A DNA stretch of 64,000 bases from Asterochloris sp. CNOR1 (Eukaryota; Chlorophyta; Trebouxiophyceae; Trebouxiales; Trebouxiaceae): contig OZ017758.1 in the NCBI GenBank assembly GCA_963969365.1, positions 1,426,001 through 1,490,000 of the forward strand, read 5' to 3'. Of this stretch, positions 4,170 through 60,714 are shown piece by piece. Position 1 is the first letter of the stretch, and each line of letters starts with the position of its first letter. A program made the translations under genes and the position numbers. The notes under the pieces are model-generated. The model was not told where the DNA came from. It made no database searches and saw only the letters and a program-made list of their open reading frames with translations.

Positions 4170-7100
4170 ATGGCAGATGATGAGGCAGCAATGTTGCAAG
4201 CTGCCCGCTCTCAGCCCCTGGGTGACCGGGTGGCTCACAAGAACTGGAAGGTCAGATGTGAGGTCTATGAGGAGATCAAGGCCTCCTGCCAGAGGGTCTG
4301 TAGCTCGGAGGACCCCATCCTGAGTCAGTATGGTGAGTACAGGCCGCTCTATGGGAGCCAGAGTCGCAAGCTCGCCAGCTCGTGCGGGATGTGGGGTCCA
4401 CCCTCAACGTGATATGGAGAGTTGCAGCATTGGCAGTCTGCTTTTTAAAGCCCTTACCAAGTCTCCGCCTGTCTGCAGTGGGCGTCTTTCCTAAGGCGAT
4501 GGCAGACGCTAATGCTGCTGCCCTGGACAAGGCGCTGGAGGCGCTGTCTGCACTGCTCAGCAAGGCTGATGAGTCTGTGGCTGCCAGGCAAAGCCTTGCG
4601 GGCCCTTCGCCTTCCTCCACTCGCCTTTGAAAGTCCACCACTACCATTGCCAGTGCTTGACAGCAATGAGCTCTGCCTGTCAGGGCAGGTGTAGTAGTAA
4701 CGTATTCTGCCTGCTGAAGCCTCACAATGGCCACTGTATGCAGGATTGCGGGGCCATTGTGCTCTGGATTGGCCAGCAAGGTGCTCAAGCAGCGGCCTGG
4801 CACAATACAGCGTGCCAAGGACGTCTGCCTGGAGTTCTGCGAGCTGGAGCAGGGCGAGGCAGTCGTGGTGGGTAACATGGCAAGGTCATGCTGCTGAGTG
4901 CAAAAGTGAGCCAGATGCCTGCCTGAGGTCTGCCTGCTGCTGACAATGCTGTTTCTTGAGGCCATGCCTGTGTGGGACTCACTCCTGAGGCAGTGCTCGC
5001 TGGAGGTCTGCCTGCTTGGCACCAGGGCCAGTCTTGCTGAGCTCACTCTGGCCCGGCAGCCTGCCGCCTAGTAGAGGCAATGCGGCATGCACCAGCTAAC
5101 ACCCACGCGCCGTCAGTACTGTGGCTGCGGCTGCAGGAAAACATCATGAAAGCGTTCACAGACAAAGTGCCTAAGGTCGTTGTGGCAGCTGCGGACATTA
5201 TCACGACTGCAGTGAGGTAGGCAGCACATATCAACAATGGAGCCACCTGTGCCAGGATCTGGTCAGCTGCTGGACCCCCAATCCGTGCTTTGCTGTTCAT
5301 GCCTCAGCAGAGCTCGTTTCAGTGTGCCACTGCTGTGCTGCAGCCAATTTGGTGTCAAAGTCATCCCCCCACAGCAGATCTTGAAGAGCCTGCCTAAGCT
5401 GTTTGAGGCAAAGCAGGAGCCTGTCAGAGACGGAGCCAAGAAGCTGACAGTAAGCAGCGCTACTCATGCGGCATGCAGCAGATGCGTGTGTGCCTGCAAA
5501 GCTCGACATCCATGGAAACCCCAAGCGGTGTCTACTGCCTGCGCAGCAGCTAGGCCTTCTGCTGTGTCAAGGGACTTCAAGCTGCCCAGAACCATGTGGC
5601 TCTGCCCGCATGTGCCAGCTTGCATGTGCCCTTGTCTGCTGATCAAGTGTCAGCACAGTGAACACCGCATGTGCCACTGCAGCCACAGACCTGTGGCCTT
5701 GCAGAACCGAGGCCGCTGCTTGCCACCTTCTGATGACACTGGCCGACCCCTCTGCTGCCCCTGCAGATGGAGCTCTGCAGCTGGATGGGGGCGGCAACCG
5801 TCCAGGCCACCCTGGTGGACAAGATGCCTGATGCCATGCGCAAGGACGTGGAGAAGTCTATCCAGGAGGCACCTGCTGGGCGCAGGCAGCCCGAGCGCTT
5901 CACGCGCAAGGAGCAGGCTCGCAGGGCGGCCGCTCCAGCTCCTGAGCCCGCCAGCAGGCCTGACGAGGCTGCTGCTGCGGGCCCAGCAGCTTCTGCTGCA
6001 GCAGAGCCTGAGGAGGAGGAGGAGGTGTGATTTGGCATCCCCGGTGCCCAGCACCTGCGTCACTCGTGTCCGCACAGTGTCTGCAGCACAACCTGACTGC
6101 TTTTACGTTCCAGGTCAGCAGGCTCCAATCGAGGCAGCTTGCTTCCCTGCATTCATTCTTGATTGCACACTGGGGGAGCCAGCCCCAAGTATCGCAGCTC
6201 TCAGTGATTCACCCTGTCAGGGGTAAAACTGTGCTGCCTTGCTGCAGCACATGAAGCCTTACGATTGCTCTGAGGCCGCAGACTGCAACTGTGCAGCCTT
6301 GCTGAAGGGCACAGGTGGCCACGATATTCTCTGAGCCTGTGGACTGCAGCTGTGTTGCCCTGCTGCAGGGAACAGATGCTTATGACTTCTCTGAGCCTGT
6401 GGACGTCCTCAAGCAGCTGGGCAAAGAGTTTTGGTCTGGGCTGGCGTCCAAGAAGTGGACTGAGCGGAGGGATGCACTCCAGTCTCTGCGGGCGCTTGCC
6501 AAGACCCCCAAAATTGCTCCAGGCGACTTTGGGGAGGTCAGCAGGTGAGCTTGCTCTTTTGCTGCTTGTGCAACTGCCATGACCACCTCAGCCTGAAGGT
6601 TGTACTTCTTGCCAAGCCCTTGTCCGTGAGTCATCTTCCATCACAGCAGATTTGCCATCTCTTGACCCACTTTTGGAATCCACCTGCAGCAGAAAACTGA
6701 AAGGTGTAGCTGCGACTGCCATGTCTTGCACCATTGGTTCCCTATTGTTGCCTGCGGCTGTGCAGGGAGCTCAAGAAGATCCTCACCAAGGACAGCAACA
6801 TTGTCTGTGTGGCTGAGGCTGCCGCTGTCATGGGCCTGCTGGCTAAGGGACTCCGTAGCAGTTACAGTAGCACAGCCAGGGCTCTCTGCCCTTCGCTGCT
6901 GGACAAGCTGAAGGACAAAAATATTGTTGCCTGCCAGAACCTGGCAGAGGCACTCCGGTACATGCACAAGTGAGTTGCCTCAAAGCCGCCCAGGGTTAGT
7001 GCTGCCATTGTCCCCAGCAGGTAACAGGCCTGTCTCTGATGAGTAGCGCCTCCTTTGTAGCTGCCCTAGTCCAAGCCTGCGCTGTTAACGTGGATCATCC

Positions 7101-10100
7101 ACTAGACTTCCACTCCTGCTAGACTGTGCACACGGGCTGATGCTTGCCTGGTGTGCATGATTGACACCATGGCATTTTGCTCTTGGCCTCTATCTGCAGC
7201 AGCTACACTCGGCACACACTGCCATGTGCTTCATCTTTCAGGTACTGTTTCAGCCTAGCAGACATTCAGGATGACCTGGTGGCAGCCCTGGACCACAAAA
7301 ACCCCAAAGTGAAGGTGGAGACCTTGAAGACCATTCAGGCGTTTGTAGGAAGCACCAGCAAGGCGTCCGCCGCCAAGGTCCACTCCACGGTGCTGCCAGC
7401 CGCTGCCAAGGCAGCTGGGGAGGCTGCCCCTGACATACGGGAGGCAGCGCTGGGCGTGTTGGTGGCGTTTGCAATGAAGGCGGGGAGCGCGTCTGTGCTT
7501 AGCAAGGTGAGCACAGTGTGGCGGAATTCTGAGCGCCTGAGTTCTTCAGGTGAGGCCTGCTGAGGCCTGCTGAGAAACTGGGCTGAAACTTGGCCAGACC
7601 TGCTGAGGACGTTTGCCATCAGGGCAGCAGCGCGTCTGTGGGGAGACCTCCCAAAAGCTGGCAGGGTACCATTACAAAGCTTGTTCTGATCAAGCACATG
7701 TTGCGCATTCAAATACTCAGCCAGCCCAAGCCAGACCTATTCAGTAAGCGACAGCCAAGCTTGACAGACCCCCTGGAGCTGCAACTGCATTCAAGCATCA
7801 GTAAAGTCATCGTGCACCAGGCAGAGGTGCAACAGGAGAGCTGCTGCTGTTTCTTTAGACCACTGACGTGCCTCTCTATATCCGTCTCAAGCTGCAGTAT
7901 GCTCGCCCCTGCCCTGCTCTCAAATTCGGGGCTTTGGCTGCCAGCACTGCAGACCACTGTACATGTTGTTGTCTGGCCTGCTTCTGATGTGGTGCATGTG
8001 CCTGCCACTGCAGGCCACTGCCAAGCTGGACGATGCCCGCAAGAAGAAACTGGACGAGATGTTCCAGCAGGCTGTGTCAGGGGGAGGCACCAGTGCAGCG
8101 GTAGCTGCCAAAGGTGGCATCACCGCCACGTCCTCTGCCAGCAGTTCCCCAGGGATCAGGCGCGGCACGAACATGCCAGTGAGTGCCTGGGCGCCTTCCA
8201 GGTCTTTGCCGTCAGCATCTTTCTGGTCAAAATCCCTGATTGCTGCAGGCAGCGGCCATCGTTGTTGCACTCAAGATTCCGCAGACTGCTGCGCTGCACG
8301 ACCTTAACTGTGCTGAAGAGCCCAGTAGCTTTCTAAGATTGCATGCCAGGGCAGAATTGCACACAGCTCAAGGACTGTTTGAGCTCCATTGGTCATGAGC
8401 CTCTGAGTTGAGGCTGAGAAATTACTGACACATGCATTGACATATGTGTTTGCAGGCCACGGGGCCCTCTGCAGAGCCGCCTGTACTGGCCACACGCAGC
8501 TCAAATGCGCAGCCTGCAGCAGGGACTGGCACCTCAGGCAAGGCGCCTGTGGCCCGGCGCCTGGCCCCTACAGGGTCACAGAAGGGCAAGCCGGCAGCTG
8601 GCGCTGGCAGCGGTTCGGGTGTGGCTGACGACGATGATGCAGGCCTGGCAGCCGGGACGCTTTCCAAGGAGGATGCAAAGCAGACTTTGCTGCAGCTGTT
8701 TGGCGAGGGTGAGCACTCATGGCGCCCCGCTGGCCTGGGGAAGCTGTCAGCTGTGAGCTGCTGCAGGGACTCATGTTGTGTGTGCATGACTTGGCAAGGC
8801 CTTTTGAGAGGATGCAGGCCATGTCAAGGCAACTCCAATGGGCAGGAGCCACAGCTGGGCACTGCCACCTGATGCCCTTCGAGACCTGCTGAAACGGCAG
8901 CCATGATGCCTTTGCACCATGAACACTAGGCACTGCAACCATGAGTCTTGCTAAAATGTGCCTGTGGGCATGCCGCCTAAATGGACTGCAGAGACACACT
9001 GGATGTGTCTGTGTGCAGGCGTGCTGGTGGTGCGGCAGAGGGCTGGGATCACAAAGACTGCGACGAGACAAGAAATTGTTTGTGTGCAGGCGTTCTGGAG
9101 GGGCTGCAGAGCGCCAACTGGAAGGAGCGGCTGACCAGCATGGAGCGCCTGCTGGAGCAGGTGCATGCCACAAAAGAGAACCTCAACGGCTCAGCCTCCG
9201 CGCTTGTGCAGAGCATGTCCTACTTGCCGGGCTGGTCAGAGAAGAACTTTCAGGTGGGTTCAATGGCTCACAAAGGTCATATACTTGTGTGAGCAGCTGC
9301 CCTGGACTCAGCCATCGGCAACCGGCAAGCACCTGCTTTGATTTCATGCAGTTTGGGGCAAGGGAGCCAATATTTGAGTCCTACTGAACAGTTCTCACAT
9401 GCTGCAAAGGCAACAAGGGCTGTGCTATGGGCCTCTGCAGCAATGGCTGAAATGTATTGTGTGAGCAGTCTGGCTTGCATCATGGCTCAAGCACCTTGAT
9501 GCCCTGCTGGAAATCAAGGTGCACGTCGTCAGCTCCAATCATGGGCACCCTGGAGGTGATGTGCAGGACTGCCAGACCCACCTCCCACCGGGCACTCTGC
9601 AGGTGATAAGCAGAGCATGATTCCCATTCTGGGCACCCCTGCAGGGGATGTGCAAGGCATTCTTTTCTGCCTACAGTACTCTCCCATCGTCGGCTCCCTG
9701 CAGGTCATGAGCAAGGCGTTTGAGCTGATCAGCTTGGTGGCCACTGAGTCCCCCTCTATGACCAAGAAGGACGCCTTCCTGGCCATTGGGGGCCTGGTGG
9801 ACAAAATGGCGGACATCAAGCTGAAGGGGCCGGCAGGGCAGGCCCTGACAGCCACCTCAGAGGCGCTGGGGCCCCAGTTTGTGTGCATGCAGCTGCACAA
9901 GAAGGCGGTGGCCCACAAGAATCCCAAGGTGCAGGCCCAGTCGTGCCTGTCATACTGCTTGCTGGCGCAAGGATGTTGCGGCCTACAAACCCCTAAAGGT
10001 GTGCATGCTGATGTCTCTGTCTAGTAAGGCTGAGGCGCAGATGCTGGTGAAGCCGCAGTGCAACTGCGCATGCCACAGGTCTGTACTCGGCCTGATGCAC

Positions 10101-13100: not shown

Positions 13101-16100
13101 GCCTTGGGAGTCGCCCAGCCTCTGTGCGTGGCTCAAGGGCGGCAGGCCTGCAGAGCCGCAGCAACAGTGCAGCCACGCTAGCTGCTGCAGCATCTGCGCT
13201 GGGCAGCAACGACAACGGGCCGTGTTTGCTTGTCAGTGACCGCAAGGATGATCGGGCCAAGAAGGTAGGCTCCGCACGGCCTGCCTGTGAGGCTGCCAGA
13301 CTGTCCGCTGTGGTTCTGCTCCAGGTAGTGCACTGCGGCGGCCGCAAGGCATGCTGTCGGGGTACAGGGACTGCTGCTTTCCTCACCTGCCTCACCTGCA
13401 CCACCTCGGCCTGCACATGAGAGGTAATGCATGCTGCGATGTACCTGCAGGCGCGCTTCACCCTGAAGACTGGCAAGTTTGAGGGTGTCAGGGAGGATGA
13501 GGCTGAGGCCTTGGAGACAGACCTGGCGCCACAGACGTCAGACACCCTCAGGTGTGCAGAGGGAGAATGTGTCTTTGGGGATTGCTGCATACGGGACAAG
13601 GCTGCGTGTGGGCAGACACCGGTCATCCCTGCCTTGCCTTTACACCTGTGACAAGCTGCAGCATTGTACCATACGCCTCTGAAGCTCTCTTACACCACAA
13701 GGCTGCAGCTGGACAGTGCTGGGAACCTGCATGCTGCTGGAGCCCCTGGGCACAGCAGTGAACCTTGGCCCCGCCGAAAGACCTGCCGCCCTGTGCAGGG
13801 CCCTGCTGTTCAGCAAGGACTTCCGGCAGCATGTGGAGGCAGCAGACCTGCTGTTAGGGCAGCTGTCTGACATCCCTGAGGCTGCGGTGTCCAACCTGGA
13901 CCTGCTCCTGCGATGGGCTGTGCTGCGCCTGTGCGACGGCAACACACAGTGCCTGCTCAAGGTCCTGGAAATGTGCAAGGCGCTGTTGGAGCTGTGCCAG
14001 CAGATGGTGGGTGGCAGTGCGCTGTAAGCGCGTCTTCTGGCTGACATATCCCGCCTTCTGCAGCTGTACTGGTTGACAATCGGCAGCAGTGTGCGCTTGT
14101 GCTGGCAGACTTGCCCAGTCTGCTTGACCGCTGCCTGTCTGCCTGGGCCCATGGCAGGCATGGCTTGTCTGCCTGCATGGGCATTTTTGAAATGCGCATG
14201 GAGCTGTGTTGGCAGAGTGGGGCTGTAGTTGCGTGCGGCTGAAGGGGATGCTTTGCACAAAGTCTTTCTGGTTGTGTCTTGCTGCTGATGCAGCCCCCTG
14301 CATTCCGTCAGAGCTGACCGCTGATAGTTGGGCTGATCAATGCTGCCTGCATGCATGCTAAAGGCAAGCCAGCAGGTGGTGGGCGACAGTGTGCTGTGAC
14401 TGCCTCAGCTGGCTGACCTGTCCTGCCCGCGCTGGTGGTGCTGGCTGCACCACATGCTTGTGTGCTGGCTGGCTGCCCTCTGGCGCCACCATCTCTGCAG
14501 CTGCTTTGGGAATTTCTGTTGAAACGCTTTCCATCTGGCACTGCAGGACTGCCAGCTGACAGAGTATGAGGCAGCTGTGATTGTGCCCTGCCTGATTGAA
14601 AAGGCAGGCCACAATCAGGTGATCTGCTGGCATAAATGCTATGAGCAGGCTTGTGTCTTTGCCAGGCATGTTGCGCTACTTGCCCTGTCTGCAGTACATG
14701 CCCCCAGGTGCTTTCCAGCCCTGCCTGCTCGCTGCATGTGGTGCATTCTACAGAACGTGCGTCATGTGGCCCCGTGTCCTGACCTCTGCTGCCAGCAGGA
14801 CTATCTTAGACACTTGATGCTGCGCTGTGCCCAGCAGATGCCTTGCACCCCACTCTGCTTTCAAATTGGTGCCATGAGCCTACCTGAACCATATCAGGCA
14901 CCTGTACTATCTGTATGCTGTGCTGTGTACTCTTGGTCGTCTAGCAGTCACAGTAAACTTTGCCGTGATGCCGCTTGCAGGACCGCATCAGGCACCTGCA
15001 CAGGGAGCTACTGCGGCAGGCGCGTGCCCTGCACCCCACGCTGCGCATTGTCGATATGCTGGTGGTTGGGCTGGCCTCCAAAAATAACCGTACACGGGTG
15101 GAGGCGGCAGAGGCGCTGGGGGACATCATTGCAGATGAGGGGGTGCCCGCCATTGAGAAGGCGCGCCACCGCCCCCTGCCAGCACTTGCTCAGGTCAGGA
15201 CGCTCTGTCGCCATGAGCTTGCCACCTGGAGAATCTGATGCAAATGAAGGGCCATGGCTCCCAGCCCTTGCCAGCCCTGGTGCCCATTGAGGTCCTGGTG
15301 CCAGCAAGTCGCACTGATGCCAGCAAGTCAAGCTTATGGGTACCTGTCCCTGGAGGAGGCATGGCGCCACGCCCTGCTTGTGTGGGTCGACCCCGTGTGT
15401 CTATGCAGCAGCATGCAGGGGTCTGCTCCAGGCAGTGAGAGGAGTGAAACTGTCAGCCTTCGTGTAACTGGGGCCGCTGGTGCCACAGGGGCCCATCTGC
15501 TTGGGTTTGGCGTTCAAGCTGCACAGGTCAACAAATCTCCCTGGAGCAATTTTTGAGCATACAGGTGAATGCAGCTGATGAGGAACATCTCCCAGAGGAA
15601 ACTGGATGCAACACATGAGCAGCCACGTGGTGTCTCCTTCTTTAATCTTGTCTCTCTCCCACTGACTCCTCTGTTCTAATGCCCGCAGCTGGTGTCGGAC
15701 CGCGACAAGGCCACCCGCAGTGCAGTGCTGGGCGCGCTGGAAGCTGTGTACATGCAGGAGGGGCCCTCAGGCTTCTGGGAGATGCTGGGGCACCTGAATG
15801 ACCAGCAGAAGAGCCTTATCAGCGAGCGCCTCAAGTACACGGACAAGCAGGTATTTTGAATTGCTTTCTGGCCTCTACCGGGTGACACTCAGCCCAATGC
15901 TGGCGGCATGGCACAGCACTTGGATGGCAAAAACGTCAGCAGATGCAGAGGCAGGCCGCTGCCGCACACATGCAGCAAGATGCTCAGCACAGCTTCCTGA
16001 TGCATATAGTGCTGCTCTCAAGCTGCAGCTATCAGTCCAGGCTTGCCAGCACACAGCATGCACCGACTTTACCAGCTACATGGAAGTGGCAGAATCCAAT

Positions 16101-19100
16101 GCATGTTCTGCTGCAGGCTGTCAAGACTGGCTCAAGGCCCGGCTCGCGAAAGGCAGCCAGGCTAGGGCAGGATCAGGAGGTGGAGGCTGAGCCATCCTCC
16201 TCGGCACCTCCCAGGTGAGATCTAAGCGTTCTTGGCAAACAGTGAAAGACTTGAGAGAATGAAGGTCCTTTTGTAACACCTGTCTGCCAGGAGAACTGAG
16301 GTCTGTGGGGTCACCTCTGTGTGCAGGTCTGAGAGTCAGGTGGGGCTCAGGCCGCTCAGCAGGAGCAGTTTTGGGGCACCTGCTGTCAGCCAGAGCGGCA
16401 GCTTCCAGCCAAATGCGCTGGCCTCACATGCGTTGAGCAATCTCTCTGCCCCATCAGCAGCTGCCAGGCGGTGAGGAAGTCGCATTACAAAGGCTTTCGG
16501 CTTGAGAGAGAAGCAAGCAGACTCATACAGCACAGGAATGGTTGAGTACAGCAGCCATTCTGTTCGCTGTGCTGACACAGGTTTGCAATGCTGCAGACCA
16601 GCGGCATTGGCAACCCCTCCTATTCGGGCTGAGATGACTCCGCCCCATCAGTCGGGCAATGGTGCTGTGCCAAGCAGCATGCCTACGCCTGTGCCAGCTG
16701 CCACACCTATGCCAGGTGACAGACAGCAAATCAGACTTACTTCCTAGATAAGCACAAGGCTGTGGCACATGCATGTCCCACTGAATCAGGGGCTGCTGCT
16801 TTCCTGGAAAACCTCCCCACGCATCTGACGAAGCCTTGCATAAGTTGCAGCCGAGTCTGCAAAAGCTTACTTCCAGATCCAACATTTGTCCTGTAGGTGT
16901 TGTGGCTGCCACACCTCTGCAGACGCCACCCCCAGATGGCTCTGGGGTGCAAGCGCAGAGGCGGGATGAGGAAGTGGAGGAGCAGTGGCAGCGAGGGTTT
17001 GCCATGCTACAGGGTCGCGACCTGCCACAGGTGAGGCAGGGCTGGCAGTGCAATGTGTGAAAGGGTGACAGCGAGGGCTGTACATGCTGTACGAGAACAA
17101 CCTGCCGCAAATGAGGCACTGCTTGAATAAGTGCTGCAGCTGGAGCGGTCCATGCTATAGGGCCACGAATTGCTTCGGTGACGCAGGGCAGGCACTTATA
17201 AAGTCTGCTTGCAGCCGGGCCTGGTCCGCTGGCGGATGCAGCTTGCCACAGCTGAGGCGGAACAGGCACTCAATCAACTGGGGCCGGCTGGGGTAGAACT
17301 GATGTTGCTGCAGCGCCACAACCTGCCATGATGAGGCAGGCACTCTGTGGAGACTACTAGCCTGCTGGTCAAAGCAGGGGCCTGGCTGAGCATGCTGCAG
17401 AAATGCAATTTGGCAGAAGTGAGGTGGGGCAGACGCTGTGTGGAACCAGTAAGCCGATAACTGCATGATCCCGAGCTCCTCATCAAGACCCATGCAGCAG
17501 GTCGGCAGAGCTAGGAGCGAAGGTGTGCCATGCTTGCCTTGCGCATCTGGCTGGTCTGGGGCTCAGCTAGCAGCATTTCCTGGCCTCATCCAACAGAGGA
17601 AGTGGCACGGCAAGCGCGACATAGGCATTGCAAGGCATGGAGGAGCATAGAGCAGGTGCATGAAGGGCTCAAGCAAGCAATGTTTGCTGCAGGCAGTGGA
17701 GGGCATGAAGGTGTTGTGCTACGAGCTCATGGAGGCGACGGCTGGCAGAGCGAGCCCATCCACGCTGGGCAACTGCGCAGCCCAGGCAGACGGGCTGGTC
17801 AAGGAGCTGACAGCCAAGGTCCATCAGGTCAGCACACCTGCTGGACCCTGTTGTGTGCTCCTTGCCAAAGGCACAGCAGAGCAACATGAACAGCACTTCC
17901 TGATCTTAGGTGAGGCACGCTTGCCACCAACAACTGGCTTTCTTGAAAGTATTTTTATCATAGCAGACACCCAGCTGGATGGAGCAATGCAGGCAGCCCC
18001 AGGGAGCTTCTCCCACAGCACTTGGCAGTGCTGTCTGCCTTGCATTGCCTTGATCAGTGTGGCTGGGTCTCTGCATTGCCGCCAGCTGAGCAGCTTCTGG
18101 CTACCAGCTCTCTTTGCAGGGTCATGCTGGCTGCAGGTGTTTGGTGCAGCCATTCAGGACGTGGTGCAGACAGGACTAGCGCCCAGCTCGCTGGTACGCA
18201 CTCAAGTGAATGCTGTGGTGCAATATTGCCTGCAGGTGTTCGATGCAGCTATTCAGGACATGGAGCGGACGGGGCTGGCGCCCAGCTCACGGGGATGCAA
18301 GTATGCGCTCAACACGCTGATGCAGACCTTCCAGCTGAAGACAATGGCGACCAACATTGCCTCCAGGACGGTGCGTGCCAGCAGCTGCAATGCTTCTGGG
18401 TGGCTTGCAGTGACTGCGATATTGCTGAAGAGACCCCTACAACTGTGCCATGCAGCTGCAGTGCTGGCCATGGGACCTTGCTACAACACAAGACGTTGCA
18501 TATGCTGGCAGGGTGTCTTGTTGCTGGGCCACGATGGATGCCTGGATCATTGCAACAGATCAGCAAGCCTGTGGAGCCCTGCTGGGTTTGCACATCTGGT
18601 GTCTCTACCTGTCAACACACTGCATGCCTGGTGGTGTCCAGCTGCCTCACAGTGTGCTGTCTGCTGCCTGCAGCTGCGTGAGTGCTGTGCTGCGCTGCTG
18701 GTGCGCCTTCTGGACAAGCAGGTGCCAAAGCTGCAGGAGGGCACCCAGCTGCTTAAGGCGCTGAATGTGCTGATGCTGAAGATTCTGGACCATGCCAACA
18801 GGCAAGGCATTGCTTCGTCTGACGTGAGCTGCTGATGTTTATCTTTGGGGGCAAAAGACTTGAGGGCAGTTGGCTGCCTGCTTGCTGCATGTCTGCATCC
18901 AGCAGGTGGCACTTCTGCACGGCTTCGTCCAGCTGTGAATTGGAGTCCGCTAGCCTATTCTGCAAGCAAATTCCGGTGGACTATACACAGCATCTGCTGT
19001 CGCAGGACATACTCCTTCAGCGCGCTGCTGGTCCTGCTGAGGTACCCTCCTGAGGGTCTGCACCGGCAGGGGCCTGCTGCAGAAATCCAGTTCAACGACC

Positions 19101-43000: not shown

Positions 43001-46000
43001 ACCCTGAATGACACCCTGACAGCTGCTGTCAAGGCGGCCAAGCTGGCGATGGACGCAAACATGGCCAATGCAGGTCAGCTGAAGTGCAGCCACCCGCACA
43101 ACGAGCGTGCATGCCTGAGGCTTGCAGCCAGGTCCCTGCACATGGACCACCTGAGCAAGCGTGGATGCAACAGGTCCACAGTCACTGCATGCAGCCTGGG
43201 ACCACATAAGGTTTATTTTGCCATGCAGGCCAGGGGTCTTGCTGCAGCTGACCTGCTGGTGCAGGGTATGCTGCACCACGCCGGCAGAAAACGAAGCTCC
43301 TTTTGCGCCCCCGTCATGCACACTGCCATGCATCACCACGTGCCGTGTGATGTGTGCGGGTTGCAGGCAGGCACCTGGCCGTCTGCCCTGCGCCCATCTC
43401 GCGCCTGCCTGCTCACTGCCTGTCGCAATCTTGCGACATGTCTGCCTGGGTGTCCCCAAGCAGGACATTGTACAGATTATTGCCCGCCCAACTCCTGCCC
43501 ATTGTCTGACTGCAGTTCACGTCTACCTGTGTGATGACTCCCCCAAGGGCTTCATGGAGGAGCACAACGGGGTCAAGCGCCTGGCTGCTGACCTGCACCA
43601 GGAGGTGGCAGACTACTTGGTGCAGGTAACCTCTCAAAGACCTTTGCCCAGGAGACATCTTGGGCCAGTCTCCACCTCATTCACCCATTGCTCCTCAGAC
43701 CCCCACCACTACCGCCCTGAGGCCAGGCTGGACTCAAGTTCCTGCCCTCTTGGTATTAGGAAGGCCAAGTTTATGGACTCGTTCACCGGTTTGCTTCTGA
43801 ACACCTGAGGAAGCAACCACCAAGCTCAATACCCCGGCCTGTCTCTTTCAGCAGGTCTCACTGCCCTGGCCTCGGGACCAACCCCTCTACCGTTTTGCCT
43901 GCAGCTTTGCGAAGACCTGAGGCACGCTCCTGGGTTGGGCCTGACTCATACGCCTGCTTTCCTGCAGGAGCATGGCATCCCCATCATCCGCGTCACGCGT
44001 GAGAAGGACAAGGGCGGCGAGAGCAACCCTAAGAGCTCCAACCTGAACAACTGCCTGCGCCAGATCTACGGAGACTCAGTGCCACCAGCCTCCGAGGTGG
44101 GACTTGTTACCTGCTTCTGCATGCACCGCTCGTGTTGTCAATGTGCAAGAGGACAGACAGCAACAAGCGCCCAAATACACAAATGCGGCAGCTTGAGATG
44201 CGGCAGCCCAGCATTGGTGGTGGTGCTGGCATCCGATATTGCCAAGGTGCAGCATAGCAGCTGGCAAACTTGGCACATACCAGCGCACAACTAATCTTCA
44301 CTCAGGCCCTGGCCCTGAGCCTGTATGTGCATCAGAGCTAGAAGCCTGCTGTCAGGCACATTTCAAGCTGCTCTGCTGTGCACTTGCAAATGAGTGTAGT
44401 ATGTCATGCAGCCCGCACTGCCTGCATGGAGCTGCTTATGGCACGTCACTGCCTCTGAGCTCGAGGATGGCTGCTCTCAACCTCTTGAGACGAGTACCAG
44501 CATGGCCGATATGTGTGCTCTGCATGCTGCCTGCAGGTCATTGCAGTTTTTGATGCCGACCAGGCTGCCCATGGGTACTTTTTCACAAAAGTATTGCCTT
44601 GGATGGACGCTGGAGATGATGTTGCAGTTGTGCAGTCTCCTCAGGTGCGTGCTTGCACAGGTGCCAATGCCTGGTGATGCTTGATTAGCTGGACAGCTTG
44701 GCCTCATGCACCTGCAGTCACCCCAGCTGCAACTGCTGCCCCTGCTTGGTGGTGCCAGCCACCACGATGCCCTCTCCAGCAATGCTGGGCTGGCCTTTCT
44801 GCAGCAGCGCTAGGTGTTGCAATCCCTCAAGGCCTTGGACTGCTCACACAGCCTCCCAAGCTCCCATGCTGCCTGCACCGTTCCCCAGAGCTGAGAATCC
44901 GTGGCCTGCTGCAGGTCTTCAGGGGGGTCAGCTACTGGGACGATGTGTTCAACCATGAAAATGTGGGCTTCTGGCACTACCTGCAGCCTGCATACAATGT
45001 CATGGGCTTCATCTCCTGCGCTGGCACCAACTTCCTGATTCGCGCCAACGCCTTTGCCCAGGCAGGGTGGTTCCCCACTCACACTCTGACCGAGGACTAT
45101 GCCCTCGGCATGGAGATGCGCAGGTGAGCGCTTGTCTCTGTTTGGTGCGCTGTGTGTGGTTCAGGCGCTGGGCAAGCGGGGTGGTTCCCATCTCACACTC
45201 TGACGGTGCCCTTGGCAGATGAGCTGGTCTGGATGTGGGCCAGTTGGGACAGCAACAGTCTCCTTCTGTTGCTCTGGAAGACCCTGCACTGACAAAGCAC
45301 TACACACAAGGCATGGAGAGGCACAGGTCAGGTGTAGCAGAAGCCTGGCTGCTGAGGCTGTTGACCTAGCAGGCATGGGCGGGCTGCACCTTTGTTGTAC
45401 CGTCCGCATGTCATGCGAAATGAGGCCTACGGTTTGAGCTTGACAGTCCCCACATGGGCAGGCTATGCTCACTTGCACAGCTGGCTGTTGCAGCCAGTGC
45501 TCTCAACTGCTGTGCATGATTCCTGCTGACAGGGCTCATCCGCACCAGCCAGAGCTGGTCTGCCCTCTGTGCGCAATAAGTGACCCTGTCGTCCTGATGC
45601 AACAGCAATATCTGAGCCGGTCTGCCGTGCCTGTGCAGGCGGGGGTGGAGGGAGGTGTATGTGGAGCAGGAGCTTGTGCGTGGGTCTGCCCCAGACAAGG
45701 TTCGGGGCGCCTTTGGGCAGCGCTCACGCTGGTGCAAGGGTAAGGCTTGCCCCAGCATGTGAGCGCAGGCACCCCTGGCCACATGTCTGGCCAATGCTTG
45801 CTGCAGGAAAGGTTTGACATGCTGGTGGTCATGCTGAAGACCTGGGGCAGACCTGGCACAGTCCTGCTGCACTGCTGCCCACCTCACAGTTGTACCTCTG
45901 CCACAGACGTCATGCAGCCCATGGGGCCTTGGACAGAGCTATGTGCCTCTGGCTGCAGGCCCCTATCAGATGCTGTTCTCCAGAAAGTCCCCTCTCTTTG

Positions 46001-47858
46001 CCAAAGGCCTCAACCTCCTGGACCGCATCCTTTACCTATCCCCCTGTTATATTTATGTCGTCAGTGGCATCGCCACGCCCACCTTCATTGCAATCCCCCT
46101 GGGTGAGCTCTGCCTGCCTATGTATGACAGCGCTTGCTGGCTGCACACAGTGTGTCTCACACTGTGCATCCTTGTGGGGCACAGGGGTTGCACAGCAGCA
46201 CTGCAGGTGCTGAGCTCAAGGCTGCTGCAGTTTCAGCTCGAATCTCCTGACCGACGCAACATGGGTTTCCATGCTGCACCAAAGGCTGTGCCTCAGAGTC
46301 TCCTTGTGCTGAGTTCAGAGGAGACATTCTCCCCGTGGCATCAGTGCCACCAGCGCAGTTGCCAAGTATCTCCTTTTGGCTATGCAGCCTGAGACTGTAA
46401 TTGTATCAATGGGCTGGCAGCAGATGAGATGCCACAGACATTGTTAAGGTCCCCCCTGCTGCCATGCAGTTTACATATGGGCTGGCAAGTTCCCAGCTTC
46501 CCTGACATCCAGTGTCGTCAGCCTGCTTGTGGCTTATGCCATCCTCAGCTCTGTGGTCAAGTACTACGTCCGCCCAGGGCGCAACATCATCCACGACATC
46601 AAGTGAGCCCTGGTGCACAAGCATATTGGCTCAGCCAAATATATCGGACCCACTGGTGCCAATCCCTGTTGATCATGCATCCTCCTGCACCACCAGTTGG
46701 CTGCTCACTCCTCCCCTGCTGGTCATCTGTCCCTGTACCAAATCGGGGCTGCTTTGTCTGAACGCTTTGCACAGGCAGCATGTTGGCCCTCTCAGCAGAC
46801 TGGCTGCCCAAGATGGCAAACTGTACGAGGGGAACAGTGCAAAGTCATCCAGCACTGCTGCACAGTGCCAGAAGTGGGATGGCTGCGACTGCGCAGGTCT
46901 CACTGGAACGCGGAGGTGTCCACCAAGAACTTTTGGTGGATGTACATTAAGGCAGCTGTGCGCGGCACCATGAGCAAGTGCGGCTGTCTGACCCTGGGGT
47001 GGACGCCTGGCGCAGGGGGCAAGAAAGTGGCCAACTGCTGGACCAAGTCCTGCGAGGCCAAAAATGACCTGCTGCCCCACTGCCTCTTTGCGGTGAGCCT
47101 GGATCATCATCAGTACACGGGTCAAGGCCACAACAAGCTGCTGGACCAAGGTCTGCGAGGACTCCCTCACAGCCTGTTTGCAGTGAGCCTGGTGTTCTGC
47201 ACCAACCACGGGGTGCTTGTGTTGCTCCTGGCGGCTGTGCAGCTGCGGAGGGTCCGGCACTTAGGTGGCTAGCACAGGCGTGCTGACACTGATCATCACC
47301 CCTCTGACGTCCTTCCCTGTTGCACTGCAGTTCATCATGGCTGCCACCATCGCGTATGGCTTTGTGATGGTCGCAGCTGGGGCCAAGTTCGTGGGGCCGC
47401 TGGGCATCTCACTTGTGTGGGCGTGCTACCACCTCACATCTCCTCTCCTGCTCATCCTGTACACGCTTCTACCCTTCAGGCATGAGGTCAGGCATGACAA
47501 AGTAAGCTCCCCAAACCCCTCTGTCATATGCTTGACACTGAGCCTGCACCTGAGGAAGGTGCTCCAGGCCAGCTGCTTTCTGCTCCTCCTGTGCAGGCAC
47601 ACACATTGCTCTGCAGCTAATTGTTCCCGCTGCCATGCACAGGTGTTTTTCAATGGTGGAAGGTGGCTGTTCACCATCATTTGTCAGATTGGTTTTGTAG
47701 CCTCGTTTGGAAGCTTCGTTCTGGCCATCGTCCTGGCCTACAAAACCAAACATCTGTGTGCCTTCTCGGCCAGCTGCGGTGATGATTCCTGCTATTGGAT
47801 GAGTCCCTCCCACACTTTCAGCTACATGCGAGGCAGGCATGTACCCGGCACATGCTGA
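40004..47858 (+). CDS. Membrane GT2 polysaccharide synthase, cellulose-synthase-like
   Basis: Role inferred from family: processive beta-glycan synthesis from a nucleotide sugar at a membrane. Seen: ATG 40004 starts a long cytosolic N-terminus with Ser/Arg-rich text (GTPRRSRSRSPYRPSG) and two TPTYGxQPY repeats (exon from 40441). Transmembrane segments appear near 42420-42630 (WEMVLLVLAWLAVTIAYVVV). The catalytic core comes next: RVMVPCYKED (about 42966), VYLCDDSPKGF (43523), IAVFDADQAAHGYF (about 44540), a GTNF segment and TEDYALGMEM (about 45090), and GAFGQRSRWCKG (about 45705). These match the D, DxD, TED and QxxRW motifs of processive GT2 enzymes. C-terminal membrane helices follow near 46020, 46510, 47330-47480 and 47640-47730 (WLFTIICQIGFVASFGSFVL). 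The last open frame ends at TGA 47856-47858. A Cys-rich insert (SKCGCLTLGW, near 46975) sits between C-terminal helices. Product (cellulose or another glucan/mannan) cannot be read from sequence. Several exon joins are approximate. Confidence 0.85.
41530..41900 (+). repeat. Echoes of the PVDEPVGKRRLEWT exon
   Basis: The exon end and donor at 41530-41593 recur at 41651-41713 (offset about 121; GAGAGGCGCC and GTGGACACGTG kept), near 41790-41834 and weakly near 41884. Surrounding intron text (GGGTRCCTTGCC, TTGGCTC) is duplicated with them. Confidence 0.8.
42674..42778 (+). repeat. Tandem pair in GT2 intron
   Basis: GCACTGCTCAGCACAG followed by GTGCAAGGCAGAA occurs at 42674-42716 and 42738-42778, offset about 64 nt, downstream of the first membrane exon. 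Confidence 0.75.
47027..47193 (+). repeat. Echo of the Cys-rich GT2 exon end
   Basis: 47027-47106 and 47123-47193 share CTGCTGGACCAAG, CTGCGAGG and TTTGCRGTGAGCCTGG in order, so the donor is copied as well. The reading frame stays open across both, and it is not certain which donor is used. Confidence 0.78.
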
Positions 47859-53983: not shown

Positions 53984-55627
53984 GTGGCAGGGGGCACCTT
54001 AGGCTTTCATTTGGTGGTCTCATCCAGATCTTCTCAGTTCTCGTGTCACTGTCCACGCTGCTGGCAGTCCTCAGAGTGAGCGTACTTGGAATGAGCCTGC
54101 CTCAATGCTGTTCCAGGGCAGTGTGTCAGCAACACACAGACGTGACCAGCCAGCACCAGAGGCCAGCTGGCTGTGCCAAAGTTCTTCCATCTGCAGCCTT
54201 AACCGCAAGGCCGTGCTGCAGATGACAACAGTTCTCAGCTCCCAGAAGCAGGAGCCCTATGGCTTGGCCCAGCAGGCAGCCCTTTGGCAGAATGCAGCCC
54301 TGACTGGCACCCGCCATGCTGACAAGCACCCGCTGCCCCACCTGACAAACCTGGTTGTGGTGGCTGCTCATGCTGTGTTCACTGGCTTTGACTTCACCAA
54401 GTCAGAGGATCCTGGTAACTGGTTCCTGCTGTCTTATCAGAGGGTGAGTCTGCTTCAATCAAAGCATAAAGCTGCTTTGGGGTCAGGCATAGGCATGGCC
54501 TGGGGGTCCACCAGGCATAGTGATGACACCCTGCAGCCTTTGCTGATGGTATGAGCAGCTCAGGCAAACAGCGTAGTGCATCTGCAATGATCGAAGCAGC
54601 TCTGTCCAAGTGCATTCTGCTAGAGGCCTCTGACAGCCTCGCTGGCCTGCAGGGTGTGGAGGGGCAGAGCCACAGTTTTGTGGAGCACATACAAATCGGG
54701 GTGAAGCATGCGGAGGCTGATCCCAGCAGCCTGCTGCTGTTCTCAGGAGGGCAGACACGCAGAGCTGCTGGGCCTCGCAGCGAGGCCGAGGGCTACTGGA
54801 TGGTGGCAGCAGCTGCTGGCTGGTGGGGGCACAACGGCGTGCAGGATCGAGCCTTCACAGAGGTGCCCCACCTAAAAAAGCACTATGCCGGCCTTATATA
54901 GAGTAACTGTGCTGTGGCATAGAAAGGCTGCCCTTGTATGCAATACGGCTTGCCCCTCATGCAACGAGGTTGACTCCCTTCATGCTCTGCCCTCGCTGCA
55001 GGAGCACGCCCGTGACAGCTTTGAGAACCTGCTGTTCAGCCTCTGCCGCTTCCACGAGCTGACTGGCTCCTACCCTGAGCACCTCACAATGGTCAGCTAT
55101 GACTTCAAGCGAGCTAGATTCCTGGAGGTACATAGGGCAGCCCTCCGGTGGCCTGAGGAGCGCATGTCGTTCCTGGGCTCGCGCACTCTCTCCCGTGACG
55201 CCGTTCAGGTGCGATTGGCACTGCCAGCAGCCAAGCACTTACAGCTGGGGCTTGCTACTGGAGCAATCCCGGCTCTGCTGGTCCTTCTTGGGGTCTGGCT
55301 GCTGCTCAGGAGGCCCTCTTGGGGCCTGCTGCTTGCTGAGGTCGATTTTGGCAGACTAGCTTGCATCCTGCACATGAGCTTGCCAGGGAACCTGAGTTGC
55401 ACCATTGCCGGCTTCAGTCACACTCATCAATGCTGCAGAATGAGGCCTCAACCCTCAAGGCATTTCAGGCAGATCCTTATGGATGTCACGGTGATCTTCT
55501 GGCAAAGAAGGAGGCACGCGATCCATTTGCCTTGGGGCCATATGATGGGCACCGCTGCCCTGGCATGAGCGGTCTCCTCAGCTACTGTTCCCACACTTTG
55601 TATAGCGACAGGCTGCCCTGGGATTGA
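53984..55627 (+). CDS. DUF218-domain protein
   Basis: Known: DUF218 proteins (SanA/YdcF superfamily) are often membrane-anchored with an alpha/beta fold; the biochemical role in algae is not established. Seen: four exons with counted, consistent phases, 54222-54443, 54653-54862, 55002-55208 and 55439-55627, give 275 residues from ATG 54222. Motifs in order: NLVVVAAHAVFTGFDF, NWFLLSYQR, FVEHIQIGVKHAEADPSSLL, LLFSGGQTR, GPRSEAEGYW, EHARDSFENLLFSLCRFHEL, TMVSYDFKRARFLEVHRAAL, ADPYGCHGDLLAKKEARDPF, PYDGHRCPGM, ending SDRLPWD. These are all the family's conserved blocks, so the catalytic domain looks complete. ATG 54222 follows a CTGCAG acceptor, so an upstream exon is likely. A hydrophobic stretch near 53995-54078 (LIQIFSVLVSLSTLLAVLR) ending at a GTGAGC donor in the same phase could be its membrane anchor; that start is a guess. 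Confidence 0.85.
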
Positions 55628-55750
55628 AAGTGTGCTGTTTGCAGGTAGGTGTTGTGTCCTGCTCCCAAAGAGAATGGGTGTAGGTCGGATGCAATAGTAT
55701 TGCAACAGTATTGACATTTATCCGTTGTTGCGACACTTCCAGTCAAGCAG

Positions 55751-56585: not shown

Positions 56586-59500
56586 TCATACCCAAAGGAG
56601 ACTTACATGCGCAGCAGCATGAGTTGAGTCTGTGTGCAGCGCAGCACTGGCGCACTCGACAGACAGCTCCTGCTGCTTGTGCTTCACTGGCAACACTGCG
56701 GTTCGTTCCTCACCTTCACCATCAAAGTATTTGATTTGCTTTCCAATGCTGGACAGTTGTGCCATGTCATCGGGCGGCAGCTGCCACCCCAACGCTCCAA
56801 GGTTGTACTGCAGCATGCGGCGCGCTGTGAAGTACAGGCTGGCGACGGAGCATCTGAGTGCGCAGATATGAACCACAGCAGCATGTGGCACACTGTGTAG
56901 CTCAGGCGGGCAATGCAGTGGTTGAAGTGTGCAGAGATCAGCTTCAACAGCGCATGGCATGCTGGTTGGCAGCGCACCAGCAACACTCATTGCAGGCAGT
57001 CAGCAAGCACACAACAGACAGGTGGCACCCACCTGCATGTGCCGAGCGTCTGTTGACTTGGGCATCACGCTGACGCCGGTCTGCAGCCCCCACCTCAGCA
57101 GCACCTGGGAAGGTGTTTTGCTGTTCTTGTGGGCAATCCCCTTCACCTTGGGATCCTGCATGCAGCCGGAGGTGGTGCTTCAAGGGCAGTGCTGACATTG
57201 CAGCCCCTTCCGCTCAGCAAACCGTTGGCTTTCATCGAGTCAGGCAACAAGCGCAGAGGCTGGTGGTTCTGATGAGCAGCCTCACGAACTTGGCAGGTCA
57301 GAGCAGCGTCAATCTCCGCCCAGCATGCTCACCCTCATCAAATTTGGCAAGCTTTTGCCCATGCTGAGCATGGTCCCAGGGCTGGACAGAGGGCCATAGG
57401 CAGTCACGTGGATGTTTTGCTCCGTGCACCACTGCCGAAGCCGCTCATTCCTGAAATGGGGGTGCACCTCCACCTGCACAGTCGAGGTCAACCCTGTAAA
57501 CAGAGGCTCGCCATGTTCTGGTGAGAGCCACCAGATGAAGCAGCAGGCAATGCCTATTCATGCAACAGACATGGGGGGACCCACAGGCTGGAGTGCTGCG
57601 AAATTCACTGTGCTGGTGACCACTGCAGCACAGTCTTGCTGAAGCCAGCAGCAGGGCGGCACGGGCAGGCAGCACAGGCAGGCAGCACCAGCATGCATTC
57701 CTCCCAGGACGTGTCCACACAGGTGCTGGGCATAACAGAGATGCCACGTCAGCAGTCAGCCGTCAGCAGCCAGCAGGCTGGCAACCACAGCACTCACTGC
57801 TGATCTTACCTAATCGCTGGGCACAGCCAGGCTGCAGGAAGCCAGCATGACTTGGTCAAACCAGTCATGCAAGTCTGTCTGTGGGGGTTGGACGACCGTG
57901 GGGCAGTAGATGACCGTGCAGCAGTAGCAAGAGCACCTCCTGCAGCAACCCCAGCATGCACCTGCACAAGCTGCATGTGGCAGCAGGCAGCCCCATACTC
58001 CAACAGCACCCACAGCCCGCCCCACAGCTTGATCCTACCTGATCGCTGGGCACAGCCAGGCTGCAGGAAGCCAGCATGACTTGGTCAAAACAGCCATGCC
58101 ACTTTGTCTGTGGGCAGTAGATGACCGTGCAGCAGTAGGAAGAGCACCTTCTGCAGCAACCCCAGCATGCAACTGCACAAGCTGCATCTGACAGCAGGCA
58201 GCCCCATACTCCAACAGCACCCACAGCCCGCCCCACAGCTTGACCTGACTGCCCAGTAGTAGCCACACCTGCAGCTGTACCGTCTACAAGCAGCCCGGCA
58301 GCACTCTTATGCAAGGCCTTGCACGGTCGGCTACCCCTGCATGCAGCACTGGCAGCATGCCCCACCTGATTCACGTCAGGCTTGATCTTGGCGACCTTCA
58401 GCACGGCCTGCGTCTTTGACGGCGAGAAATTGCTGATGCCAATGCTCCTGACCAGTCCCTCCTCTACAAGCCCCTCCATGGCCTGCCACGTCTCTTCCAG
58501 GGGCGGATCAATTCGGGGTCCCGGCTTGCCCGTGTACGGCCTGCATGCAGGAGACCGCTGTGGGCAAGCATGATCTCAGCTTGGTGCAGGGGCACTGGCA
58601 CCTTGTGAGGCTTCCCTGTGCAGGGCTGGCCACGGGCAGCACTGTCTAAAGCTGTGGGCGCAGCGCTGCAGGTGAGGGTGTCACCTCAAGGCATACGCAG
58701 AAGCTGGCTGCAGCACGTGTGGGCCGCATGCTGAAAGCTCATCGCATTGCCCAGCTGAGCCTACAGCAGCCTGCTGCCTGTCCATGCATGCTGGGGCAGC
58801 GTAGGTGCACAGATCCTCAGCACTAAGACAGAGCAGGCCCACCAGCACATGCAAAACCAGCTGCAGCAACTTGTTCCTGACTGCATGAAAAATCACTGCA
58901 GTGCCCAGCTGAGCCTGCAGCAGCCTGATGCCTTGTCACTGCAGGGATGCATGCTGGGCTGGCTTCAGGCAAACCATGCACTCAAGCTCATCACCAGGAC
59001 CAGAGCAGGGCCGCCAGCTGTGTGGGGCCAGCTAACTGCATCTTACACACATGCTGCATGCCCCCTGACTGCCCACAGCTCCATGTAGACAGCTCCAGCC
59101 CACCATAACATGTCATGGGCGGCCCACTCCTTGCCCAGTGAACAAGGCCAGCAGCAAGCCTGGCAAACCAGTTGTCATGCAGACCAAGACCCAACCAACC
59201 TCACAAACATGCAAGGAAACCGTGCTGCGGGGAGGTGCAGCGGCAAGTAGGATCAGAGATCCTGGATGAAGGATGTGGTGAGAGTCCTGAAACGCCAGCT
59301 CTGGCTTACAATCTTTGCGGACTATGTTTGCTGTACAGGGTAAGGCAGTGTGAATCCATGAGTGAGGTGCAGGAGCAAGCCAGCACCAGCATTTGTGATC
59401 GATCACCAGTGAATGAGGTACAGGTGCAGCAGCAAACCTGGCAAGCCAGCTTCACGGTTACCAAGGCATGCCATCAAACTATGCCAGGGAGGTGCAGCGG

Positions 59501-60714
59501 CAGGCCACCAGCACTTGAGATGAGATTGCTCACCAGTGGATGAGGTACAGGTCCAGATGATCCAGCTTCAGCTTGGCCAGGGAGGCTTTGGCAGCCTTCT
59601 TGACATTGGCTGCCGCATGGTTGTTACTCCACAGCTTAGTGGTCACCCAGAGCTCCTCGCGCTTTACGCGGCCAGCGCCCAACATGGTGGACAGGGCCCC
59701 ACCAATCCTGTGCTCGTTGCCATACTGCTCTGCGGTGTCAATGTGCTGCAAGGCAGGGGGCAGGCGTTGCCGAGGTAGTACAGTGTCTACCTGATGCAGA
59801 ACATTGGGGCCTGAGTTTGTTGCCAGAAAATGCTCTATGATGACGTTGTCCTGCAGGTCAGAAGTGAATGTGTGTGAGGGCAAAGCAAATCTGTGCTGCT
59901 GCACAAGGAGGTGGACAGGGCTCGCCTGTCCAGTGCTTGTTGCTGGACAGCTCTATGCCGTGTCGATGTGCTGCAGGGCAGGGCAAAGGAGGGGAGGGGG
60001 AGAGTGTACAATGGTGGAGTGCCATGCACAGCTCGCCCTGCCACCTTGTGCTGCAGGGCAGAAAGGACATGGCTGTGAAGAAACTCATGCGCCGCCAATG
60101 CTGTGCTCAGTGCCTCCAGCTCTGCTGTGTCCCAGAACAAAGCACAGATATTGTTCTGGGACATAGCAGAGCTGGAGGCATTTACATGGCAAGATGTGGG
60201 CATGGACATGCTGGCAGCCAGGAAATGCTGGGCAGCCTGCGCACTGTTATACCAAAGAATGGCCCCTTGTCTCCAGTGCTCTGCATGGGATGTCATGGGA
60301 ACTCCATGGAAATGCTCAGCAAGCATCACAGCATCAAAAGAGATAGGACATCTCTGAGCACCACCATACGTATTTCCTTTTGGGGCTACGCACAAGGGAG
60401 AAGAGCCACAGCAGCAGGTGGCTCACCCTGTAGCCCAGATCGATGGCCTTTTTCACAGCAGTTTCACACTCATCACCCTGTGCCTGGGAAGTCCCAAGCC
60501 CGAGCAAGGGCATTTTATTGCCTGAGTTCAATTTCACATGTGTGTCCCGGGCAGTTGCTGATACTCCAGGAGCAGGCTTTGTTGACATGTTTTGCAGGAA
60601 TGGTAGGGTGGCGCCAGTGGCAAGCACCTCCCTGCGGGTGAGGGATGCTGTGCATGGCTGCATGCCACGATGTGACAGGCCTGCACACAGGGGACTAGTA
60701 ATTGCTCTCTGCAT
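56586..60714 (-). CDS. Aldo-keto reductase, probably organelle-targeted
   Basis: Role known for the family: NAD(P)H-dependent reduction of aldehydes and ketones in a TIM barrel with a Asp-Tyr-Lys-His tetrad. Seen: seven exons, 60427-60714, 59534-59745, 58366-58540, 57333-57473, 57033-57155, 56714-56807 and 56586-56629, sum 1077 nt with phases closing on 358 residues. The N-terminus ([20 protein letters not shown], then [17 protein letters not shown]) looks like a transit peptide with a possible twin-Arg signal. Core: [38 protein letters not shown] (Asp and Tyr), [13 protein letters not shown] (Lys), [12 protein letters not shown] (His), [65 protein letters not shown] and [20 protein letters not shown]. 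The tetrad is intact, so it should be active. The NADP-site text [12 protein letters not shown] differs somewhat from the usual PKS..RI.EN. Introns carry tandem duplications and an inverted echo. Confidence 0.92.
57802..58240 (-). repeat. Young tandem duplication in AKR intron 3
   Basis: Copy 1 (57802-58030) and copy 2 (58031-about 58240) are about 93% identical by eye, apart from an indel of about 20 nt. Both hold CGCTGGGCACAGCCAGGCTG and CCATACTCCAACAGCACCCA. This is the freshest duplication in the window. Confidence 0.9.
58691..58937 (-). repeat. Older tandem pair in AKR intron 2
   Basis: 58691-58774 and 58852-58937 (offset about 161) share CAGCTGCAGCA-like text, GCATG, CATYGCATTGCCCAGCTGAG-like text and CAGCAGCCTG in order. 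Confidence 0.75.
59220..59560 (-). repeat. Echoes of AKR exon 2 end
   Basis: The exon-2 end and donor with flanking intron (59484-59555) are echoed at 59365-59437 (offset about 119; CACCAGTGAATGAGGTACAG against CACCAGTGGATGAGGTACAG) and partly at 59230-59280 (GGGAGGTGCAGCGGCA). Confidence 0.82.
59931..60143 (-). repeat. Echoes of AKR exon 2 start ([12 protein letters not shown])
   Basis: On the minus strand the exon-2 acceptor and start (59695-59760) recur at 59931-59988 (HIDTA then a stop; CCCTGCAGCACATCGACAC). The acceptor alone recurs near 60032-60066, and a third copy lies near 60091-60138 (GACACAGCAGAGC and GAGCACAGCATTGGCGG kept). All lie in intron 1. Confidence 0.78.
60111..60180. repeat. 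30-bp near-perfect fold-back hairpin in AKR intron 1
   Basis: Arm 60111-60140 and arm 60151-60180 are inverted copies with one mismatch in 30 (a G-U pair if the plus strand is transcribed; C-A on the minus strand). The loop is 10 nt (AGCACAGATA). Pairing stops sharply at both ends. Arm 1 overlaps the third echo of the AKR HIDTAEQ exon. Confidence 0.92.

Follow-up and report, generated by a model that had tools for sequence, protein, structure and literature searches.

Introns of the green alga Asterochloris sp. CNOR1 carry copies of the edges of their own neighbouring exons. We consider it probable that these copies, here called exon echoes, arose by ordinary short tandem duplication, with the units that span an exon-intron boundary being absorbed by the intron and without special targeting of boundaries. 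Such echoes had been predicted from a single stretch of 64,000 nucleotides, hereafter the window (contig OZ017758.1, C13:1426001-1490000), within a genome of 56.4 Mb. The whole window was inspected, and the copies of exon edges in introns are real and are also found outside it. When a predicted donor or acceptor lies within one copy of a pair, its partner sits in the adjoining intron and the outer splice site stays in use.

The sample totals 304 kb and comprises the window and 24 stretches of 10 kb (L002-L025). The first 18 of these were taken at 300-310 kb of contigs C1-C18 (244 kb with the window) and six more were added later; the G+C content of the sampled genome is near 58%. Genes were modelled by a self-trained hidden Markov gene finder seeded with exons read by eye, and the models are predictions from sequence alone. 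Their splice consensus is CAG/GTGAGC at donors and TGCAG/G at acceptors (slash at the junction). Ten stretches of predicted protein were compared with Pfam. The families matched are Psb27, SCC3/STAG, XMAP215 TOG, GT2/cellulose synthase, aldo-keto reductase with YccV-like and UVR, Tim17 and RRM; for one stretch the only match, to DUF218, fell below the cut-off, and another had none. One model joins MOR1 with SCC3, and another joins the aldo-keto reductase (AKR) with the YccV-like part; both are taken to be fusions of neighbouring genes, as a result of which the intron total includes some intergenic DNA.

Own-exon matches were measured in the 244 kb by comparing each intron with 80 nt from the adjoining end of each flanking exon (the last 80 of the upstream exon, the first 80 of the downstream one); 60 non-cognate edges and the reverse complement served as controls. 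The set consisted of 400 usable introns (at least 100 nt long, away from stretch ends, in models with at least 240 coding bases), and introns whose relevant exon was shorter than 40 nt were left out. At a score of at least 30, 30 of 347 introns (8.6%) match their own upstream exon end, while the rate is 0.17% for non-cognate edges and 0.6% for the reverse complement; 23 of 339 (6.8%) match their own downstream exon start, with 0.16% and 0.3% for the same two controls. The cognate excess at this score is 40-50-fold over the edges of other exons. The median per-intron p is 0.39 for the upstream and 0.46 for the downstream edge, and most introns are therefore without an own-edge signal.

Repeat pairs were analysed across the full 304 kb after dropping models with fewer than 200 coding bases and removing exons shorter than 30 nt (internal ones were merged into introns). 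Only pairs spaced 40-600 bp apart were kept, closer or more distant ones being dropped, and the 7 of 136 that lie outside gene models form a class of their own. We found 136 direct pairs and a single inverted one, and 68 of the 469 predicted introns (14.5%) bear an echo. Self-palindromes are excluded from all inverted counts; they make up 33 of the 34 inverted matches listed within 600 bp in the 304 kb. Self-comparison of the window gives 23 direct pairs and 1 inverted pair within 500 bp at E<10. In the sampled genome, pairs at E<1 within 500 bp number 161 direct and 2 inverted, with direct pairs thinning out beyond that distance. At E of at most 0.01 per 10-kb piece, the window holds 17 local direct pairs (40-600 bp).

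The original prediction of local, direct copies of an intron's own exon is thus borne out by the 40-50-fold cognate excess and by the near-absence of inverted pairs, and the non-cognate control that it had proposed, run here on the 244 kb, finds own-edge matches far commoner than non-cognate or reverse-complement ones. Among the genes it named, the signal is clear in MOR1, SCC3, GT2 and AKR and weak in Psb27 (own-exon scores of 31 and 28) and in an unknown gene (28), neither of which has a pair at E 0.01. The spacing of about 45-240 nt that it gave needs correction, as the exon-edge pairs of the window measure 60-372 nt.

The arrangement of the pairs follows a strict polarity. Read in transcript order, the intronic copy lies upstream of an acceptor-spanning edge in 37 pairs and downstream of one in none, and it lies downstream of a donor-spanning edge in 30 pairs and upstream of one in none. 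If the matched pieces were placed at random, 8.3 intron-to-acceptor pairs would be expected and 3.1 in the reversed order, and likewise 8.3 and 3.1 for donors. Simulated tandem duplications yield an identical polarity, with 0 to 0.3 wrong pairs per 304 kb and 0 in later runs. The remaining pairs are intron-intron (34), exon-intron (10), intron-exon (9), outside gene models (7) and others (9).

Spacing has a median of 122 bp (range 56-529) across the 136 direct pairs and is spread evenly modulo three in the 67 edge pairs (22/22/23). The matched pieces include a median of 35 exon bases at acceptors and 30.5 at donors, with 13 and 19.5 intron bases, respectively. Near-complete adjacent pairs number 18 of 136 and most others are eroded, the median ratio of matched length to spacing being 0.43 (111 pairs). 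In the 18 pairs the match overlaps past the unit by a median of 9.5 nt, compared with -1.5 nt in simulation (p 0.001), an overlap that extra array copies could also cause. Some introns hold multiple copies, as in L010 (spacings 112, 305 and 418) and L016 (88, 154, 308 and 393). The echoes are not minisatellite-like: of the 24 rows reported by Tandem Repeats Finder (TRF) with a period of at least 30, 21 have fewer than three copies. Among the freshest acceptor-spanning cases is L005 8523-8888, with a TRF period of 130 at 94% match (8642-8888) and more copies of the exon start upstream.

Echoes usually retain the splice site, as had been predicted, with AG kept in 29 of 37 acceptor echoes and GT in 20 of 30 donor echoes, counts that are biased upward because the match had to cross the junction. 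Sites of decoy strength, which the original prediction placed in these introns, do exist: the 10th percentile of real sites is reached by 24 of the 37 echo acceptors and 16 of the 30 echo donors, and in 12 acceptors and 9 donors the echo equals or outscores its own real site. Median scores are 7.6 for echo acceptors (real sites 8.5) and 3.4 for echo donors (real sites 6.8).

Divergence between copies carries information on both selection and age. We scored mismatches by codon position in 76 of the 86 boundary or exon-intron pairs, dropping 10 in which the echo had been partly called exon. Mismatches amount to 165/901, 130/903 and 209/899 at positions 1, 2 and 3 (18.3%, 14.4% and 23.2%), and to 21% in the intron part of the pairs. 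The ratio of third to first and second positions is 1.42 (1.21-1.66), which fits an unconstrained echo compared with a constrained exon. Error-prone birth, in which copies are born diverged, was rejected as the sole cause since it predicts equal mismatch at every codon position, and the lower bound of the observed ratio is 1.21. Repeat-induced or CpG-type mutation was also rejected: at positions 1 and 2, C to T and G to A changes are not above A to G and T to C changes. A progressive divergence of the copies with distance had been described, and we find no such correlation in the 67 edge pairs (Spearman -0.004).

Recent copies are nearly absent. Only 2 of 86 pairs with at least 45 matched columns reach 90% identity, compared with about 35 of 160 in a constant-rate simulation, and of the 12 TRF rows with a period of at least 60 none reaches 95% match and 3 lie at 90-94%. 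This near-absence suggests a past wave of duplication. When quiet periods from 0 to 0.16 neutral substitutions per site were tried, 0.11-0.16 came closest as judged by eye, with no formal fit. Collapse of recent copies during assembly would be an alternative cause of their absence.

Echo-bearing introns tend to be long. Their share by rising length class is 0/53 (<150 nt), 4/87, 8/100, 18/108, 29/94 (500-800 nt) and 9/27, and median lengths are 541 nt for the 68 introns with an exon echo, 558 nt for the 22 with an intron-only duplication and 308 nt for the 379 with neither. Subtracting the largest spacing brings the median of echo introns to 355 nt (against 308 nt, p 0.095), so that they are longer by about one unit. 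These data are support rather than proof, because longer introns can hold wider spacings. Measured from one duplicate start to the next, visible duplication accounts for 13,643 of the 188,708 intron bp (7.2%), which is an upper estimate. The proposal that introns grow by boundary duplication accordingly stands in part: echo introns are longer by about one unit, whereas a special duplication of boundaries is unsupported, given the 34 intron-only pairs and a random simulation that can reach the observed ratio. The further proposal that echoes explain gene length is likewise unsupported, given the 7.2%.

A GT2 paralogue on C12 (L028) allows the two copies of a gene to be compared. It has intron positions in common with the window gene, and matching stretches are 69-88% identical. 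In this comparison an echo was counted only when its score exceeded those of all control edges of that intron. Among the 12 GT2 introns listed, an echo is present in just one of the two copies in 5, in both in 2 and in neither in 2; 1 gives an ambiguous result and 2 are without a separate intron in the paralogue's model. Most echoes are private to one paralogue. Four of the five one-copy introns are longer in the copy with the echo (620/247, 830/306, 1002/219 and 346/294; the exception is 238/268). The echo at 47035-47192 scores 37 in its own intron and 19 in the paralogue intron, where the highest control scores 24, and is not detected in the paralogue. The first ~70 nt of one intron do align between the paralogues (window 45124-45193 and L028 4760-4827, score 42), while the other introns compared score 19-28. 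This shared start includes the beginning of the window's echo, which may be older than the paralogue split or may reflect gene conversion. A GT2 exon also matches four further places (on C1, C6, C12 and C14) at 77-83% identity, a set for dating echoes.

In the explanation that we favour, the copies would arise by ordinary DNA tandem duplication, through slippage or break repair and perhaps at short flanking homologies. They would be retained because use of the outer splice site leaves the mRNA unchanged, and selection would then preserve the exon and leave the hidden copy to neutral decay. With each event the intron would gain one unit and one decoy splice site, and boundary units would be those random duplications that selection tolerates and that remain recognisable longest. 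The direct orientation, the adjacency of 18 pairs and the ~10-nt end overlap fit slippage or short-homology repair and support it weakly. The hiding of the inner copy, which follows from the use of outer sites by the gene models, appears better supported than this mechanism.

Whether boundaries are also preferred sites of duplication is a separate matter, and our confidence in ordinary duplication and in boundary hot spots is not exclusive, the duplication step being common to both. Boundary targeting was at one stage the main claim, on the basis of a 3.6-4.5-fold excess over random placement in the 304 kb. This null was unfair, since only part of each duplicated unit survives as a match, and it was replaced by a forward simulation of random tandem duplication in which units inside or across whole exons are rejected. 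The simulation reproduces the polarity and the main classes. The observed ratio of boundary or exon-intron pairs to intron-only pairs is 86:34, or 2.5 (54:20 for matches of at least 45 columns, 30:13 for at least 60 and 15:7 for at least 80). Moderate settings give ~0.8-1.3 in three runs, 0.78-1.22 across seven settings and 0.74-0.99 across four. With near-frozen exons the simulated ratio is 1.23 without heavy intron turnover and 1.65 and 2.62 with it, and the latter two settings yield 126 and 81 pairs per 304 kb (136 observed) and ratios of 2.15-4.14 for longer matches. Across parameters the simulations thus span 0.74-2.6, compared with 2.5 observed, and boundary targeting is neither required nor excluded by them.

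Several results weigh against ordinary duplication without targeting. Moderate simulations (0.74-1.3) fall short of the observed ratio, and only near-frozen exons combined with heavy intron turnover attain 1.65 and 2.62, while the codon-position data suggest a weaker constraint than near-frozen exons. The ratio of matched length to spacing is 0.96 in the constant-rate simulation, against the 0.43 observed, and falls to 0.33-0.43 only when large indels are added; copies of at least 90% identity are almost missing (2/86, about 35/160 simulated); and pairs outside gene models number 7 where 14.1 are expected. The shortfall of moderate simulations and the scarcity of pairs outside gene models would instead favour hot spots, in which duplication prefers exon-intron boundaries, for example through transcription structures or shared splice-site motifs, and introns grow mainly from their ends. 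The boundary excess is also stronger in less diverged pairs, at 6.3/4.9-fold for identities of at least 83% and 3.8/3.1-fold below, as measured against the random-placement null. We nevertheless regard hot spots as unlikely. Two settings of the random model reach 1.65 and 2.62 and, for longer matches, reach or exceed the observed ratios in most comparisons; the 34 intron-only pairs lie near-randomly within introns (mean rank 0.44, 33 of 34 pairs used); and conservation of exons helps the detection of boundary pairs. A more specific version, in which a past wave of tandem duplications of ~60-300 bp, by now almost ended, fell preferentially on boundaries and extended introns from their ends, is somewhat more doubtful. 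If true, it would imply that introns were extended in a burst and that their fossil decoy splice sites are datable.

Other origins for the copies are less compatible with the data than ordinary tandem duplication. Retention of AG and GT in most echoes, echo acceptors that score near real ones (donors less so) and an exon called by the predictor within one echo (18137-18163) are what would be expected of functional duplicated exons, whether alternative or mutually exclusive. We consider such exons very unlikely. Two copies under constraint would be expected to exceed clearly the third-position mismatch ratio of 1.42, multiples of three are not favoured in the spacing, the polarity is strict, and only 1 of the 136 pairs is a copy of a whole exon. 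The creation of these introns by tandem duplication, with the donor from the first copy and the acceptor from the second (the Rogers model), starts from a similar raw event, a tandem duplication near CAG/GT sites, and intron gain by internal tandem duplication has reportedly been treated by Rogers (1989) and by Gao and Lynch (2009). This origin is highly improbable here: none of the 136 pairs joins a donor to an acceptor, and the two GT2 paralogues have common intron positions with mostly different echoes. An origin from introners, transposons or further kinds of dispersed element is hardly credible, as introns match their own exon and there are hardly any inverted copies at 40-600 bp, and we found no evidence in its favour. 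Whole-genome DNA searches with the echo loci of MOR1 (18137-18370), AKR and L005 returned only the same gene among the best candidates scored, and those with the GT2 locus returned, besides the same gene, only paralogous exons among the best candidates. The distinction from introner or transposon insertion drawn in the original prediction is therefore upheld at the four loci searched.

Short tandem duplications made by slippage or break repair are local, direct and tens to hundreds of base pairs long in plants and animals, where they are usually catalogued as young insertions. The duplications described here are, by contrast, almost all old, and what makes them stand out is that they are sorted by splice polarity. 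That introns can be gained through tandem duplication is accepted (PMC3443670, PMC2891723, PMC4974935), and the present case is a sister outcome, absorption into an existing intron. The excerpted account of the potato RdRp gene likewise involves a tandem duplication across an intron end and the next exon start, although there, in one gene, the duplicate made a new intron and a piece of exon, while here an existing intron absorbs the copy, in 68 of 469 predicted introns (PMC4974935). In internal tandem duplications with AGGT proto-splice sites, as the excerpt presents them, duplication and splicing choice also turn exonic DNA into intron; a new intron results there, whereas none is created here (0 of 136 donor-acceptor pairs) (PMC3443670). 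Novel intron positions in Drosophila, attributed in the available part of the paper to sliding or tandem duplication, similarly involve partial exon duplication with one copy intronized, and the same part cites tandem duplications as frequent in natural populations; it deals with a handful of cases in which positions changed, while here positions stay, as judged from one paralogue pair, and lengths change (PMC2891723). We found no genome-wide description of exon-edge copies in introns among titles and abstract openings, a search that most subscription journals fall outside, and no mention of exon copies in introns was met in the excerpts of PMC6652019 (Asterochloris glomerata) or PMC3446292 (Coccomyxa).

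Intron lengthening without transposons is, in our judgement, rarely visible; in these introns the added DNA can still be read next to the sequence from which it came. The orientation rule, with exon starts copied upstream and exon ends downstream, separates tandem duplication filtered by splicing from other routes. It predicts a standing stock of datable decoy splice sites, and the way in which duplication, cryptic splicing and intron length are connected could thus be tested directly in a small genome. For annotators, the practical consequence is that gene predictors may call echoes short exons, as at 18137-18163.

Within the window, MOR1 (+ strand) carries ~2.9 tandem units of ~61 nt at 6227..6404, the last across the acceptor of an exon that begins at 6369 (TRF period 61, 2.5 copies; blastn pair 77%, E 5e-17, class intron/acceptor). 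The same gene has echoes of the start of exon 9090-9253 at 9006..9114 (spacing 71; 84%, E 1e-5), of the end and donor of exon 13799-14006 at 13996..14427 (spacing 372; 78%, E 9e-8) and of the start of exon 18236-18370 at 18128..18299 (spacing 99; 81%, E 1e-13); part of this last echo was taken by the raw gene model for a 27-nt exon (18137-18163). In SCC3 (+), the end of exon 25254-25346 is echoed at 25303..25451 (spacing 104; 87%, E 7e-9), with an additional weaker copy at 25607-25645 (second pair 79%, E 0.002), and the start of exon 31334-31519 at 31190..31384 (spacing 136; 80%, E 1e-5).

GT2 (+) has echoes of the end of exon 41409-41583 at 41531..41707 (spacing 122; 80%, E 3e-7), of the end region of exon 44915-45123 at 45059..45204, where the match stops short of the donor (spacing 114; 88%, E 5e-5, class exon/intron), and of the end and donor of exon 46897-47092 at 47035..47192 (spacing 103; 69%, E 0.002). 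On the - strand, the AKR region contains a ~225-bp tandem duplication at 57781..58243 (85%, E 4e-82), whose donor class depends on an uncertain 44-nt predicted exon (58225-58268). Both ends of AKR exon 59534-59745 are echoed, the end with its donor at 59361..59556 (spacing 125; 76%, E 3e-8) and the start with its acceptor at 59686..59983 (spacing 224; 79%, E 6e-10). Duplications internal to introns, with copies that include no exon, occur in GT2 at 42674..42778 (+; 86%, E 4e-6) and in AKR at 58732..59018 (-; 71%, E 2e-10).

A strong palindrome lies near AKR at window positions 60111-60180 (71 columns, 87%, E 5e-17). The predicted gene at 48552-55683 has a C-terminal stretch weakly similar to DUF218, below the cut-off, and a first half that appears alanine-rich by eye. 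Outside the window, a 75-nt tandem duplication, a multiple of three, lies within a predicted exon (L004 4936-5097).

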